DNA of 64,000 nucleotides, from contig NZ_LT632547.1 in assembly GCF_900119695.1 (NCBI RefSeq), forward strand, positions 248,001 through 312,000. Reading direction: 5' to 3'. The translations under genes and the position numbers were made by a program. Source of the DNA: Actinomyces urinae. GTDB taxonomy: Bacteria; Actinomycetota; Actinomycetes; Actinomycetales; Actinomycetaceae. The stretch's first letter is position 1. Each line of letters begins with the position of its first letter. The notes beneath the pieces were generated by a model. The model had not been told where the DNA came from. It saw nothing but the letters and a program-made list of their open reading frames with translations, and ran no database searches. Positions 28,786-55,203 of the stretch are shown piece by piece.

Positions 28786-30849
28786 ATGACATTTTCATGG
28801 AACGAACTTGATGATCGCGCGGTTAAAACAGCAAAGATGCTTGCCGCAGACGCCGTCGAAAACGCTGGATCTGGCCACCCGGGCACCGCGATTTCTCTCG
28901 CGCCGCTCGCGTACCTAATCTTCCAGAAGCACCTAAAGATGGATCCGCAAGACAGCCTGTGGCTTGGTCGGGACCGTTTTGTGATGTCTGCGGGCCACTC
29001 ATCTTTAACCCAGTACATTTCTCTGTACCTGGCTGGCGGTGGCCTCGACCTTGAGGATCTGAAGAAGTTCCGCAGCCTGAAGTCAAAGACGCCGGGCCAC
29101 CCCGAGTACAAGCACACCGACTTTGTTGAGATCACTACGGGCCCGCTTGGCTCCGGCCTTTCGTCCGCTGTTGGTATGGCAATGGCACAGCGCCGTGTTC
29201 GGGGCATGTTCGACCCGGATGCCGCCCCCGGCGAGTCCCCGTTCGATCACAACATCTGGGTAATCGCAGGCGATGGCTGCTTGCAGGAAGGCATTTCTTC
29301 CGAGGCTTCCTCGCTGGCTGGCACTCAAAAGCTTGGCAACCTAATTGTGTTCTGGGATGACAACCACATTTCCATTGAAGATGACACCTCGATTGCGTTC
29401 ACTGAAGATGTGATGAAGCGCTACGAGTCTTACGGCTGGCACACCCAGCACGTGGATTGGACCAAGGGCGGCGAATACAAGGAAGACGTTGAGGCTGTTG
29501 AAGAGGCGATTCAGAACGCGCTAGCTGAGACCGACCGCCCGTCGATTATTGGACTGCGCACCATCATCGGTTGGCCCACTCCGGGCAAGCAGAACACGGG
29601 CGCTATACACGGCTCGAAGCTTGGCTCTGATGCTCTTGCAGGTTTGAAGGAAGCACTTGGCCTCGATCCGCAGAAGATGTTTGATGTGGACGAGGAGGCC
29701 GTTGCACACGCGCAGGCGAATATGAAGCAGCGCGGCGAGGCCGCCCGCTCCGAGTGGGACGCGAAGTTCGCTAAGTGGCGCGAGGCCAACCCGGAGCTTG
29801 CAAAGCTTTACGACCGCCTCGCAAAGCGCGAGCTACCCGAGGGCTGGGAGGATGCGCTACCGAAGTTCGAAGAGGGTAAGGCCGTTGCTACCCGCGCCGC
29901 GTCGGGCAAGGTGCTGAATGCTCTGGCTCCGGCTCTTCCTGAGCTTTGGGGTGGTTCAGCTGACCTCGCTGGCTCGAACAACACCTTTATGGACGGCGAG
30001 CCTTCCTTCCTGCCGGAAGACCGCAGCTCTGCAATGTTCTCGGGTGACAAGTATGGCCGCAACCTCCACTTCGGTGTTCGTGAGCACGCAATGGGTGCCA
30101 TCATGAACGGTATCGCGCTTGAGGGACTCACCCGCGTTTACGGCGGTACGTTCTTCGTGTTCGCTGACTACATGCGTGGCGCGGTTCGTCTAGCTGCTCT
30201 GATGGGGTTGCCCACGACCTTCGTTTGGACTCACGATTCGATTGGCGTTGGTGAGGATGGCCCCACGCACCAGCCTGTGGAGCACCTGACCGCTTACCGC
30301 GCCATTCCGAACCTTTCGATCGTTCGTCCGGCGGATGCCGCTGAGACTGCGGAGGCTTGGAAGGAAATCTTGAAGCGTGACGCCACGGCCGGTCTGATTC
30401 TGTCCCGTCAGAATCTGCCTAACCCGAAGCGTGGAGGCGACCTGGCTCCCGCAAGTGGTCTGGCTCGCGGAGCCTACGTGCTCCGCGACACCGAGGGCAC
30501 GCCAGACGTCATCCTGCTGGCTTCCGGTTCGGAAGTCCAGCATGCGCTTGGCGCCGCCGAGGTCCTCGCGGGTGAGGGCGTAAAGGCTCGCGTTGTGTCG
30601 GTTCCGTGTATGGAGTGGTTCGACGAGCAGTCTGACGAGTACAAGGAATCGGTACTCCCCTCGGCCGTTGCCGCCCGTGTTAGCGTCGAGGCCGGCTTGG
30701 CTGCACCGTGGCACAAGTACCTCGGTATTAAGGGCCGCGCGGTTTCGCTGGAGCGCTTCGGTGAGGTCGGCTCGGGCGATGATCTCATGGAGATGTTCGG
30801 ATTCACCACGGAAAACGTGGCTAAGGTTGCGCGCGAGGTACTAGCCTAA
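28786..30849 (+). CDS. tkt: Transketolase
   Basis: Transketolase moves two-carbon units between sugar phosphates in the non-oxidative pentose phosphate pathway, using thiamine diphosphate. The 687-residue product is full length: 'GSGHPGTAISLAPLAY' (28-43), the ThDP motif 'GDGCLQEGISSEASSLAG' ending in 'VFWDDNHISIED', the pyrimidine-binding domain with 'FGVREHAMGAIMNGIAL', and 'THDSIGVGEDGPTHQPVEHL'. Codon use appears strongly biased, as in a highly expressed gene. pgl follows after a terminator. In many Actinobacteria tkt is followed by tal, pgi, zwf and opcA before pgl; none is here. Confidence 0.97.
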   Translation: MTFSWNELDDRAVKTAKMLAADAVENAGSGHPGTAISLAPLAYLIFQKHLKMDPQDSLWLGRDRFVMSAGHSSLTQYISLYLAGGGLDLEDLKKFRSLKSKTPGHPEYKHTDFVEITTGPLGSGLSSAVGMAMAQRRVRGMFDPDAAPGESPFDHNIWVIAGDGCLQEGISSEASSLAGTQKLGNLIVFWDDNHISIEDDTSIAFTEDVMKRYESYGWHTQHVDWTKGGEYKEDVEAVEEAIQNALAETDRPSIIGLRTIIGWPTPGKQNTGAIHGSKLGSDALAGLKEALGLDPQKMFDVDEEAVAHAQANMKQRGEAARSEWDAKFAKWREANPELAKLYDRLAKRELPEGWEDALPKFEEGKAVATRAASGKVLNALAPALPELWGGSADLAGSNNTFMDGEPSFLPEDRSSAMFSGDKYGRNLHFGVREHAMGAIMNGIALEGLTRVYGGTFFVFADYMRGAVRLAALMGLPTTFVWTHDSIGVGEDGPTHQPVEHLTAYRAIPNLSIVRPADAAETAEAWKEILKRDATAGLILSRQNLPNPKRGGDLAPASGLARGAYVLRDTEGTPDVILLASGSEVQHALGAAEVLAGEGVKARVVSVPCMEWFDEQSDEYKESVLPSAVAARVSVEAGLAAPWHKYLGIKGRAVSLERFGEVGSGDDLMEMFGFTTENVAKVAREVLA

Positions 30850-49488: not shown

Positions 49489-51885
49489 TTATTCGTCTAT
49501 GTCGCCGACAATGCGGTTCAAATCGCCAAACTTGCGTGAGTAGTTACGGAATACCAACTCAATCAGGAATGAGCACGCTGCCGCTAACACCAGGACACCC
49601 AGCCACTGGGTTGGCGTGGGCCATGTGAGGGCAAAGAACGCGCGCATAGGTTCAATAAGCACTATTGCCACACCAGCGCTCAGCATTGCGAACAGGATAA
49701 CCGCTCTGTATGCAACGATCGGGCGGGACATCACAGACAGCAAGTAGAGCGCCGCCATGAGCACGGCCAACGTTGCCACTGTAGAGCCAACCTCTAGCGA
49801 CTGCGCTGCGTAGAACCTCTGCGCTACCAGCGCTGTAACTGCCAAAACTATGCCGGAGGGTATCGCGATGTGCAGCGTGCGCTCGAGGAAGCCGGGCCTA
49901 TACCTGCGGTAATTCGGCGTTAGTGACAAGAAGAACGCGGGAATGCCTATTGTTAAACTCGAAATGATTGTCAAATGACGAGGCAAGAACGGGTATCTCC
50001 ACGCAAAAATAGCGACCAGTACCGCAAGCAGGGCCGACATTGCCGTCTTGGTAAGGAACAGGGACGAGACACGCTCCATGTTCGCAATGATGCGGCGGCC
50101 TTCAGCGACAACGCGAGGCAACTTCGAGAATTTACCGTCCACGAGGACAAGCTTTGCCACTGCTCTCGTTGCGGGCGCTCCTGATCCCATCGCAATGCCG
50201 AGGTCCGCATCCTTTAGCGCGAGGACATCGTTCACCCCGTCACCCGTCATAGCAACCGTATGCCCACGCGATTGCAATGCTTTTACCATCTTGCGTTTAG
50301 TTTCCGGAGTCACGCGCCCAAACACGTCAAACTCATTGACTGCCTCGACAAAGTCCTCCTCGGCCTGCGGCAAATCGCGCGCGTCCAGAACCTTTACCGG
50401 CTCGCCGCGTCTTACTCCCACGCGGTTAGCAATCGCAGCTACCGTGCTGGGACTATCACCCGAAATCACCTTGATCTGAACGTCTTGGCGTAAGAAATAA
50501 GAGATTGTGTCCGCGGCATCCGCTCTAATCTGCTCAGCCAGAACCACAATCAAAACAGCTCTCAACTGCTTCGGTAGGCTCGGCTTATCCTCATCAATAT
50601 GATCCGAAGTGGAATGGGCCAGACAAACAACACGGGCCCCTTGCTCCGTGAAGGTCGAAACCTGATCTAAAGTCTGAGCCGCATTCACCGCGTGGTTTGC
50701 CACAATATCGGGCGCACCAAAATACCAAGAACCCGAGTCGGTGACTGCCGCCGACCATTTGCGCGACGAATCGAACGGGACGACCTGCTCCAGCTTCGCC
50801 GGTTCAATACCGCTGAGGCCCGCCATAGTGGCTTTCGCGGTCTGGTTCTCCCCGCCCGCAACCATTGCCGCAAGAGCGCTTTGGGCGTCCTCTTCTATCG
50901 ACTCATCCAGACAAATCACCTGCTGCGGCGCGATTTCCCCCGTAGTGATCGTACCTGTCTTATCGAGGCAGAGCCGATCCACACGGGCCAAAACTTCAAC
51001 CGCGCCAAGTTCTTGAATGAGGACGTTACGCTTTGCTAAACCTGCCCCGGCAAGCGCGAAGTTAAGAGACGTGAGCAGTACCAAGCCTTGCGGGATCATG
51101 CCCACCACACCCGCAACGGCGAGCACCACTGCGTGCTGCCACGTAGTGCCCTCGTCAGAACGCAACTGGGAGGCCACCAGCAGTAGCACAACAGGCAAGA
51201 TTACCCAGGAAATCCACTTCAGGATCGTGTTGATGCTCTGCCCGATCTCAGACTTAACCCTCTTGAACTGCTTAGCCTCTTTAGTGAGCCGATTCGCGTA
51301 GGAATCCTCACCCACCTTTGAAGTCTCAAACAGGGCCTCGCCCGCAACCACAGCCGTACCTGAAAGTACCGAATCGCCCTCGCGCTTGCGTACGGGCACC
51401 GACTCCCCCGTCAGCATCGACTCGTCCACACGCAATCCGTAGCTTTCTAGGACCGTGCCGTCAGTTGGCACCTGATCACCCGAGCCCAGTAGCACCAGGT
51501 CACCCAAAATCAGCTCGGCCGATGACACCTGTACCCGCGCACCATCGCGGATCACCCACGACCTCGGGGACTCCAAGATCGCTAAACTATCCAGCACGTA
51601 CTTTGCGCGGATCTCGGAGTAAATTCCAATCACAGCATTGGTTACCATCACAATGCCAAACACCGCGTCACGCCAGTTGCCAACCAGTAACACGACCACT
51701 ACGGCCGTAGTTAAAATCGCGTTGAACAGCGTGAAAAGGTTGGACCGAATGATGACCTTGATGGGCCGGGAAGTAGTGCTCTCAACCCAGTTGGTTTTGC
51801 CTAGTTGCTTAGCCCGGGCAACATCGTGCGCACTAACTCCCACATGGCCCAAGTAGCGGTCTTTGGTCGCGGCTGTTTCACTCAC
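49489..51885 (-). CDS. CtpE-like cation-transporting P-type ATPase
   Basis: The 798-residue product is a complete P-type ATPase without a heavy-metal N-terminal domain: actuator 'LTGES' (158-162), M4 'VGMIPQGLVLLTSL' (261-274), phosphorylation site 'CLDKTGTITTGE' (Asp308), and hinge 'MTGDGVNDVLALKDADLGIAMGSG'-type motif (cited in part). It resembles the mycobacterial CtpE family linked to calcium uptake. The M4 motif has Pro-Gln-Gly where many calcium pumps have Pro-Glu-Gly. The GTG start has TAGGAT six bases upstream, so it can be transcribed on its own. It lies 58 bases after terC, which is preceded by a Mn riboswitch, so manganese or calcium transport is plausible. Transport direction cannot be read from sequence. 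Confidence 0.9.
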   Translation of the reverse strand: MSETAATKDRYLGHVGVSAHDVARAKQLGKTNWVESTTSRPIKVIIRSNLFTLFNAILTTAVVVVLLVGNWRDAVFGIVMVTNAVIGIYSEIRAKYVLDSLAILESPRSWVIRDGARVQVSSAELILGDLVLLGSGDQVPTDGTVLESYGLRVDESMLTGESVPVRKREGDSVLSGTAVVAGEALFETSKVGEDSYANRLTKEAKQFKRVKSEIGQSINTILKWISWVILPVVLLLVASQLRSDEGTTWQHAVVLAVAGVVGMIPQGLVLLTSLNFALAGAGLAKRNVLIQELGAVEVLARVDRLCLDKTGTITTGEIAPQQVICLDESIEEDAQSALAAMVAGGENQTAKATMAGLSGIEPAKLEQVVPFDSSRKWSAAVTDSGSWYFGAPDIVANHAVNAAQTLDQVSTFTEQGARVVCLAHSTSDHIDEDKPSLPKQLRAVLIVVLAEQIRADAADTISYFLRQDVQIKVISGDSPSTVAAIANRVGVRRGEPVKVLDARDLPQAEEDFVEAVNEFDVFGRVTPETKRKMVKALQSRGHTVAMTGDGVNDVLALKDADLGIAMGSGAPATRAVAKLVLVDGKFSKLPRVVAEGRRIIANMERVSSLFLTKTAMSALLAVLVAIFAWRYPFLPRHLTIISSLTIGIPAFFLSLTPNYRRYRPGFLERTLHIAIPSGIVLAVTALVAQRFYAAQSLEVGSTVATLAVLMAALYLLSVMSRPIVAYRAVILFAMLSAGVAIVLIEPMRAFFALTWPTPTQWLGVLVLAAACSFLIELVFRNYSRKFGDLNRIVGDIDE

Positions 51886-51943: not shown

Positions 51944-52933
51944 TTAAGAGTCCGCACGATTATCTGCCCGAGTCTTCAGCATAGATGCCACCACCGTTAT
52001 GAGCAGGGTACCGCCAATAAATCCGAGTGAGGCGGGAATACCGATCTCTGGCACATTAAACGGCATACCCGAGTTGATGAACGGCAGATTGTTCTCGTGC
52101 AGAGCATGCAAAACCAGTTTGACCCCGATAAAGCCCAAAATTGCAGCAAGACCAAAGTGTAGGTAAACCAAGCGCTCAAGGAGGCCATCGATCAAGAAAT
52201 ACAGCTGACGCAATCCGAGTAGTGAGAATGCGTTCGCTGCGAAAACTAGGTACGGCTCTTTAGTGAGCCCAAAGATCGCAGGAATCGAATCGAAAGCGAA
52301 CATGATGTCCGTAGATCCAAGAGCAATAATTACCAAGAGCATTGGCGTCAGATAAGTGCGTCCCGCGTGGCGGTGAAGCATCTTATCCGAAAGGAACCCA
52401 TCGGTAACTGGGAACACCTTGCGCACCAAACGCACGAATCCAGGTTCCTTGTACTCGTCCTCTTCCTCATCTCCCTGGATCCCTTCGCGCACCTGCGAGT
52501 AGGCCGTGTACAACAACCAAATACCAAAAATGTAGAAGATCCACGCGAACTTTTCGATGATCGCAGCGCCGATCAATATGAAGATCAGGCGCATGACCAG
52601 GGCCATCACAATGCCATAAAGGAGGACCTTCTGCTGATACTTGCGCGGCACTCGAAATGCCGAAATGATCAGCACAAACACGAACAGGTTGTCCAAAGAC
52701 AGCGACTTTTCAGTGATGTAACCGGCCCAATACTCGCCGGCATACTGCAAATCCCAGAAGAACCAGACTACAAAGCCGAACACAACGCCAAGAAGGATGT
52801 AAGCAACCGACCAGACCGCCGCCTCTTTCAGCGTTGGCTCATGCGGGGTGCGGACGTGCCCGACAATATCGACGATAATCAGGGCAAGGATAATAACGGC
52901 CAGCATGATCCAGCCAAGAGCATGAACGTGCAA
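51944..52933 (-). CDS. TerC/Alx family membrane protein, probable manganese exporter
   Basis: The 329-residue product has about nine membrane helices. Family landmarks include 'WFFWDLQYAGEYWAGYITEKSLSLDNLFVF' (partly cited; the Glu, Asp and Asn of this stretch are conserved), and 'ALGSTDIMFAFDSIPAIFGLTKEPYLVFAANAF'-type motif in the second half. TerC/Alx proteins export manganese, also protecting secreted enzymes from mismetallation. A Mn riboswitch lies directly upstream, which supports this role. The TTG start (52933) is the outermost one in frame; GAAAG upstream is a weak ribosome binding site, and ATG 52906 is an alternative. The P-type ATPase follows after 58 bases. Confidence 0.9.
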   Translation of the reverse strand: MHVHALGWIMLAVIILALIIVDIVGHVRTPHEPTLKEAAVWSVAYILLGVVFGFVVWFFWDLQYAGEYWAGYITEKSLSLDNLFVFVLIISAFRVPRKYQQKVLLYGIVMALVMRLIFILIGAAIIEKFAWIFYIFGIWLLYTAYSQVREGIQGDEEEDEYKEPGFVRLVRKVFPVTDGFLSDKMLHRHAGRTYLTPMLLVIIALGSTDIMFAFDSIPAIFGLTKEPYLVFAANAFSLLGLRQLYFLIDGLLERLVYLHFGLAAILGFIGVKLVLHALHENNLPFINSGMPFNVPEIGIPASLGFIGGTLLITVVASMLKTRADNRADS

Positions 52934-52960
52934 TTGAAAACTTTCGGTAGTCCAAACAGG

Positions 52961-53060
52961 GCTTATCCGAAGGTCTTCTCCACCACTTCAGTGGCCACAA
53001 CACCGGGTTTTCACCGTGCTGACGATGCTGTGATTGTGGGAGTACTCCCCCTCGACAAGC
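52961..53060 (-). promoter_or_regulatory. yybP-ykoY family manganese riboswitch upstream of terC
   Basis: This minus-strand 100-base element matches the yybP-ykoY fold. P1 pairs GCTTGTCGAGG (5') with CCTTCGGATAAGC (3') with one bulge. The conserved GGGGAGTA follows P1. A second helix pairs CACAGCA with TGTTGTG and carries the conserved strand TCGTCA in its loop. A four-base hairpin CCAC-TGAA-GTGG precedes the conserved AAGACCT. These are the L1 and L3 features that dock around Mn(2+). TAGAAT just upstream (53063-53068, minus) would start transcription at the first base of P1. The gene controlled is terC, a standard target. The expression platform between 52961 and the start is not clear. Confidence 0.85.
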
Positions 53061-53062
53061 CC

Positions 53063-53068
53063 ATTCTA
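53063..53068 (-). promoter_or_regulatory. -10 element of the terC riboswitch transcript
   Basis: TAGAAT (minus strand) ends two bases before the 5' end of the aptamer, so transcription would begin at about 53060. The -35 is weak. Confidence 0.6.
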
Positions 53069-53118
53069 TCCAAAATCGCTCGCCGCGCCGAGAGGCCTGC
53101 AGTGGTTCTTCTCACCGG

Positions 53119-55203
53119 TTAATTTGCATCGCGCATTTGGCGAAGCTCCTGCTTAAGTTCCTTCAGCTCATCCCGCAGTCGGGCAGCAACTTCAAACTGG
53201 AGCTCCTCAGCAGCCAGGTGCATTTGCTTCGTCAGCTCATCAATCAGACCGGCCAGATCATCCTCGGCGGCAGCCGCCAGACGAGCTCGCGCCGACAAAT
53301 TCACCTCGCCTGCTCGACGTGAATCCGCAACTGCCTTACGGTAGCCGCCCTCCAAAAGCTCTTCGGTATCGATGTCCTCGCGGGCAAGCATATCGGTGAC
53401 ATCTTGAATCTTCTTGCGCAGCGGCTGCGGATCGATGCCGCGCTCCTTGTTGTAAGCAATCTGCTTCTCGCGACGCCGCTCCGTCTCATCAATCGCGCGC
53501 TGCATCGAATCTGTGATGTTGTCAGCGTACATATGAACCTCACCGGCAACATTTCGGGCAGCGCGCCCAATAGTTTGAATAAGGGAGGTAGTAGAGCGCA
53601 AGAATCCTTCTTTGTCCGCATCCAAAATTGCAACCAGTGAAACCTCGGGTAGATCCAAGCCCTCGCGCAAAAGATTAATACCGACCAGTACATCAAACTT
53701 GCCTTGGCGTAGTTCACGCAATAGTTCCACGCGACGAAGCGTATCCACATCCGAATGCAGATACTCCACGCGCACACCGCGAACCGACATGTAGTCCGTT
53801 AGGTCTTCAGCCATACGCTTGGTCAAAGTGGTGACAAGCACGCGCTCGCCCCGCTCCACGCGCGCATTGACCTCGCCAAGCAGGTCATCAATCTGCCCCT
53901 CTGTTGGTTTGATGACGATCTTTGGATCCACGAGGCCGGTGGGGCGAATGATCTGCTCAACAACACCCGAAGCTTGGGACAGCTCATAGGAACCAGGAGT
54001 TGCAGACATGTATACGGTTTGGCCGATCCGCTGGAGAAACTCATCCCACTTGAGCGGTCGGTTATCCATTGCCGAGGGCAAGCGGAAGCCGTGGTCAACT
54101 AGCGTGCGCTTACGGGACATATCCCCCTCGTACATGGCGCCGATTTGCGGCACAGTCACATGCGACTCGTCGATAATCAGCACAAAATCATCCGGGAAAT
54201 AATCCAGCAGAGTATGCGGCGGCGTGCCCGGCCCGCGCCCATCAATGTGACGCGAGTAGTTCTCAATACCCGCACACGTGCCAATCTCGCGCATCATTTC
54301 AAGATCGTAGGTTGTGCGCATACGCAACCTTTGGGCCTCAAGAAGCTTGTTCTGACCTTCAAACCACTGAACGCGCTCATCAAGTTCCTCTTCAATGGTC
54401 TTAAGGGCGCGCTTCATGCGTTCTTCACCCGCAACGTAGTGCGAGGCCGGAAATAGGTACACGTGATCGGTTTCGCGAATGAGATCACCGGTAAGCGGGT
54501 GCAGGTACGCTAGGGCGTCGATCTCGTCCCCAAACATCTCAATGCGAATCGCGAGCTCTTCATAAACGGGAATGATCTCGATGGTGTCACCCCGCACGCG
54601 GAAAGTGCCGCGCGAAAACGCCATGTCATTGCGCGAATACTGCATATTCACAAATGCACGCAAAAGGTCATCTCGCGAGACCTCCATACCAACGCTCAGT
54701 TCCACCATGCGCGCAACATACTCTTCAGGCGTACCCAAACCGTATATACATGAAACCGATGCCACGACAACCGTGTCGCGCCGAGTAAGCAAAGAGTTCG
54801 TTGCAGAGTGGCGCAGCCGCTCTACCTCATCATTAATCGATGAGTCTTTTTCGATATACGTGTCCGTCTGTGGCACGTACGCTTCCGGCTGATAATAGTC
54901 GTAGTAGGACACGAAATACTCAACCGCATTGTTCGGCAGCAAACTGCGTAGTTCCGCGGCGAGCTGCGCGGCGAGCGTCTTGTTTGGTGCCATCACCAGC
55001 GTGGGGCGCTGGATCTGCTCAATCAGCCACGCGGCTGTAGCCGACTTACCGGTACCCGTGGCGCCCAACAAGACAATGTCTTTTTCACCAGCGTTGATCC
55101 GCTCGGCCAGCTCCCTAATAGCCGTTGGCTGGTCACCCGACGGGGTGAACTCAGAGACGACCTCGAAAGGCGCTTCCTGGCGAACAACAGTCTGGTTTTC
55201 CAT
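53119..55203 (-). CDS. uvrB: Excinuclease ABC subunit B
   Basis: UvrB verifies the lesion handed over by UvrA and recruits UvrC. The 694-residue product has Walker A '[13 protein letters not shown]' (about 47-59), the damage-contacting beta-hairpin region ('[21 protein letters not shown]'-type, cited in part), Walker B 'LIIDESHVT', helicase motif '[16 protein letters not shown]' and a C-terminal UVR domain ('[26 protein letters not shown]'-type) that contacts UvrC. The ATG follows coaE by ten bases, so the two share a transcript. Its end lies 58 bases from the terC riboswitch promoter. Confidence 0.97.

Follow-up and report, generated by a model that had tools for sequence, protein, structure and literature searches.

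The yybP-ykoY class of Mn2+ riboswitches is already known, and one actinobacterial terC leader, that of C. glutamicum, was placed in it in 2013. The leader of that gene (cg2157) reached 49.13 bits with the Rfam model of the time, and RNA-seq put its transcription start at the start of the aptamer (PMC3890552). In the structures of L. lactis yoaB and X. oryzae yebN, which belong to RF00080, the RNA forms a four-way junction with a hairpin P2, and A41 of L. lactis, within UCA41, contacts Mn2+ (PMC6754395). The alx (PRE) and mntP leaders of E. coli are Mn-responsive riboswitches as well (PMC9603457).

We analysed a stretch of 64,000 nucleotides of Actinomyces urinae DNA (the window), in which the leader of terC, on the minus strand, is very probably a Mn2+ riboswitch of the yybP-ykoY class. 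By its sequence, the aptamer has the compact form without P2 that is seen in E. coli alx. The initial annotation had proposed a yybP-ykoY manganese riboswitch before terC, and the comparisons below support this and make it one of the same kind as the alx leader. The two leaders share the order of elements, the words GGGGAGUA and UCGUCA, the 3′ word of L1 (GAGACC in alx, AAGACC here), the lack of P2 and a TerC/Alx target. They differ in the stretch from the aptamer to the start codon, which is longer and partly different in alx, whereas here the 3′ strand of the aptamer can pair with the initiation region 20–30 nt on. The C. glutamicum leader, likened by its published description to the A. urinae leader, also precedes an actinobacterial terC but comes from another family. 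The L. lactis and X. oryzae RNAs share its L1/L3 core, including the adenosine that contacts Mn2+, and differ from the present leader in having P2.

Elements of the aptamer

The aptamer occupies positions 52966–53056 of the minus strand, as delimited by two covariance models and by covariation. The 5′ side of L1, GGGGAGUA (53043–53050; DNA word GGGGAGTA at 53050–53043), has its first two G paired in P1.1 and is invariant in 37 aligned leaders. It faces AGA(CC) at 52976–52972, within the AAGACC (52972–52977) that forms both the 3′ side of L1 and the 3′ strand of P1.1; AGACC is invariant in the same leaders. L3 is UCGUCA (53020–53025), of which CGUCA is invariant, and its adenosine at 53020, the counterpart of A41 of L. 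lactis, does not vary in the 37 leaders. The P1 pairing, GGGGAGTA, TCGTCA and AAGACC had been listed earlier as lying in this order on the minus strand, and all were found there with complementary flanks.

The inner part (52978–53042) is enclosed by P1.2 (53042–53039 with 52981–52978) and holds P3.1 (53032–53026 with 53002–52996), P3.2 (53015–53013 with 53008–53006) and P4 (52995–52982), each of these helices with compensatory changes among relatives. The linker from P1.2 to P3.1 (53038–53033) is about 6 nt here and 5 nt in alx, and a P2 does not fit into it. Hairpin P2 and a four-way junction were sought in the terC leader and are absent; they are usual in the class and not required, as alx is also without P2. 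Since there is no P2, a three-way junction is expected. The minus-strand leader folds with a z score of −2.63, and none of 200 shuffled sequences was equally stable.

Covariation of the predicted helices

Leaders of terC were gathered from 110 loci of the family Actinomycetaceae and of named actinobacteria, with a few genomes counted twice. Under a strict pattern that tolerates one changed base in AGACC, the words GGGGAGTA, CGTCA and AGACC occur in this order at 101 of the 110 loci. From these leaders 37 were aligned by MAFFT without use of the structure (alignment A3). The 25 proposed pairs are paired in 89.9% of the cells, versus 40–53% when the partners are slid, a control biased in favour of the structure because the structure was drawn from these same sequences. 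The compensatory changes are independent of that bias: two-sided changes occur in 20 of the 25 pairs, with some in each of P1.1, P1.2, P3.1, P3.2 and P4. On no covariation measure did any of 500 shuffled alignments match the real one. Moreover, RNAalifold, unaided, recovers the same P1 and P3 helices.

Covariance models

The search with RF00080 (177 positions, gathering score 45 bits, Rfam 15) that the initial annotation had put forward as its test came out negative: neither at the gathering score nor at E 10 does the model hit the terC leader, in the window or in the genome as a whole. Similarly, the model matches none of 16 leaders of relatives, and in 36 named actinobacterial genomes no hit reaches its cutoff. 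However, it also misses the alx leader of E. coli K-12 and gives mntP 41.6 bits, under its own cutoff, and for this reason the negative result carries little weight. The printed consensus of RF00080 shows P2, P3 and P4 as paired and P1 as unpaired, with no recognisable 3′ half of L1. The lack of a match reflects the limits of RF00080, and such a match is no defining biological trait of the class. The compact form without P2 is common to most bacterial relatives, yet it is missed by the current Rfam model.

Two models were built for comparison. R1 was made from terC leaders including the present one; it gives this leader 71.2 bits (E 1.3e-15, with the leader in the training set) and E. coli alx, which is not in the training set, 46.4 bits. 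R2 was made from 21 leaders of other actinobacterial families, with none from Actinomycetaceae, and gives the terC leader 64.8 bits (E 7.9e-12 in 130 kb) and alx 44.5 bits (E 1.9e-7); the E-values of both models are rough. R2 ties the terC leader to an accepted Mn2+ riboswitch, alx, and RF00080 is not needed for this link. In the 1.95 Mb genome the best match of R1 is the terC leader, the sole credible copy, and the runner-up has 13.9 bits and E 6. A match at 30555–30666, of 13.9 bits, was discarded as chance. Over the family, R1 finds the aptamer in 136 of 151 genomes, whereas no hit of RF00080 in these 151 reaches the cutoff. The copy of RF00080 used here thus misses a large and well-conserved group, and in pipelines that depend on this model most terC switches of actinobacteria will go unannotated.

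terC and the adjacent ATPase

The gene behind the leader is terC/alx (51944–52933, minus strand), which begins with TTG and encodes 329 aa. It matches Pfam TerC with 174.9 bits and NCBIfam TIGR03718 (R_switched_Alx) with 366.8 bits, above the cutoff of 246.4, so that the leader stands before a gene of Mn2+ homeostasis, as is characteristic of the class. The product is likely a Mn2+ exporter or a metal chaperone. It is followed on the same strand by a P-type cation ATPase (49489–51885; Pfam E1-E2_ATPase), whose closest relatives of known structure are Ca2+ ATPases from bacteria. The gap of 58 bases reported earlier between the two genes was confirmed; it holds no terminator-like site, and the ATPase is probably co-transcribed with terC. 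The order of uvrB upstream and the ATPase downstream of terC recurs in many members of Actinomycetaceae, and adjacency of terC and the ATPase was not found outside this family. The suggestion that the ATPase may share the Mn response gains support from this family-wide adjacency and from the aptamer's place immediately before P-type cation ATPases in other Actinomycetota.

Predicted promoter and expression platform

A −10-like hexamer, TAGAAT, lies at 53063–53068 on the minus strand, and a promoter is predicted here from its sequence and from enrichment in relatives. Of 97 leaders, 54 have the pattern TANNNT 9–17 nt ahead of GGGGAGTA, and 2 have it in each of the two stretches taken as controls. 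A −10 element had been described as ending at the first base of the aptamer. The hexamer is indeed present, but it ends 12 nt before GGGGAGTA, and the first transcribed base is therefore likely to be about 53056 and not 53060.

The expression platform (52936–52980, minus strand) consists of GAGAAGACCUUCGG (52980–52967), which can pair with CCGAAAGUUUUC (52947–52936), as RNAfold indicates in calculations of both states. Two mutually exclusive folds of the terC leader exist by calculation. For a transcript starting at 53056, the blocked fold has −43.9 versus −35.6 kcal/mol for the aptamer fold; for a start at 53061 the minimum, which is a blocked fold, has −45.8 and the aptamer fold −45.3; and a transcript starting at 53062 has its overall minimum at −49.4, with −49.0 for the aptamer and −48.1 kcal/mol for the blocked fold, all of these being energies that leave out Mn2+ and tertiary contacts. 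The helix of GAGAAGACCUUCGG and CCGAAAGUUUUC is broken by bulges and stops 2 nt short of the TTG start. Counting against the scheme, the aptamer state includes a competing hairpin, formed locally by UUUGG and CCGAA.

In relatives, the Shine-Dalgarno region GUACCGGAGG has its complement in the P1 3′ strand CCUCCGGUAC, and the platform occurs in many compensatory versions, such as CCUCCGGUAC/GUACCGGAGG, CCUCCAGC/GCUGGAGG and UUCGGUUC/GAACCGAA. The platform here has no strong Shine-Dalgarno sequence, and its longest unbroken helix, of 7 bp, is equalled in 12 of 100 shuffles by a simple count. Because of the weak Shine-Dalgarno sequence and the ordinary helix length, the switching mechanism is more certain in relatives that have GUACCGGAGG than in this leader. 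The idea that the platform is degraded in this leader was dropped, since folding gives a longer, interrupted helix that extends nearly to the start codon, although the count of helix length by itself is not significant.

The leader most likely works as a translational ON switch, for which the following course is proposed. Transcription would begin at P1 or just before. At low Mn2+, GAGAAGACCUUCGG, on the 3′ side of the aptamer, would pair with the terC initiation region CCGAAAGUUUUC and block ribosome binding. At high Mn2+, the ion would bridge loops L1 and L3 via the conserved adenosine 53020, P1.1 would close and the anti-initiation strand would be withdrawn. TerC, probably together with the following P-type ATPase, would then be made and would lower free Mn2+.

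Alternative explanations

Control of terC by the same aptamer could instead proceed through transcription termination or Rho. Transcriptional yybP-ykoY switches do exist, for instance in X. oryzae (PMC6754395), and this route is unlikely here without being negligible. No terminator-like site lies from the aptamer to the start of terC; the search gave just two sites, both inside terC and within chance. In many relatives, moreover, pairing joins the 3′ strand of the aptamer to the initiation region, where a GGAGG Shine-Dalgarno sequence is usual. Blocking of translation initiation is the mechanism that we favour for Actinomyces urinae, and it is reasonably likely. A more radical reading takes the plus-strand open frame (52367–53122) to be a genuine gene, with the RNA-like pattern of the minus strand as a by-product. 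The frame is open for 251 codons and spans the riboswitch. Nevertheless, it has no Pfam match, it runs codon for codon antisense to terC in exact register, it is broken by stops in same-genus relatives, and the pairs on the minus strand covary, which leaves this reading with hardly any credence. The frame had been called misleading, and we agree that it is a shadow open frame and not a gene; the statement that it ends in ...ILSK was mistaken, as it continues for 15 residues to 53122.

Mn2+ as the ligand of the terC leader is proposed by analogy with the known members of the class. The actinobacterial group without P2 might sense another divalent ion, such as Ca2+, Ni2+ or Co2+, and the P-type ATPases and Na/Ca-exchanger-like proteins that accompany it are not Mn2+-specific by sequence. 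This is nevertheless very improbable, as loops L1 and L3 of the metal site are invariant, alx is found by the same models R1 and R2, and proteins of the TerC/Alx and UPF0016 types include known Mn2+ exporters (PMC13274385). Scarcely more credible is that the form without P2 that is common among Actinomycetota, presumably with a three-way junction, is a functional subclass in addition to a structural variant, with docking or selection of the metal unlike that of the four-way form, for example in affinity or ion.

Distribution and downstream genes

With a stricter E cutoff, R1 finds the aptamer in 53 of 247 genomes drawn from across the phylum. The genes 3′ of the aptamer in this sample mostly encode TerC, and also P-type cation ATPases (L148, L149, L156, L160, L162 and L164), Na/Ca-exchanger-like proteins (L159 and L163) and a UPF0016/GDT1-like protein (L167). 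The last has two E-x-G-D-K-(S/T) motifs, in the form described in PMC7380456. This set of downstream genes fits Mn2+ export (PMC13274385), and the ATPases, the UPF0016-like protein and the exchanger-like proteins behind the aptamer suggest Mn2+ exporters that have yet to be characterised. Unexpectedly, the aptamer of locus L158 precedes an M50 peptidase that carries a CBS domain.

Within the genus, two genomes (G053 and G095; loci L004/L140 and L005/L141) keep the order uvrB, terC and ATPase, and the aptamer is absent there. Since some species of the genus keep terC and the ATPase without the aptamer, the switch is dispensable. One of these loci (L140) keeps a GAGAAGTATTCTT stretch, which may be a remnant of the aptamer. 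R1 also gives no match in G170 and G183. Another genome of the family, G051, has two elements without P2, both found by R1 and both passed over by RF00080. The same genome carries an element with P2 that resembles yybP-ykoY (L171, G051:C1 near 771011), which RF00080 scores at 29.5 bits. It precedes a gene for a probable CDF-type transporter, as assigned by eye.
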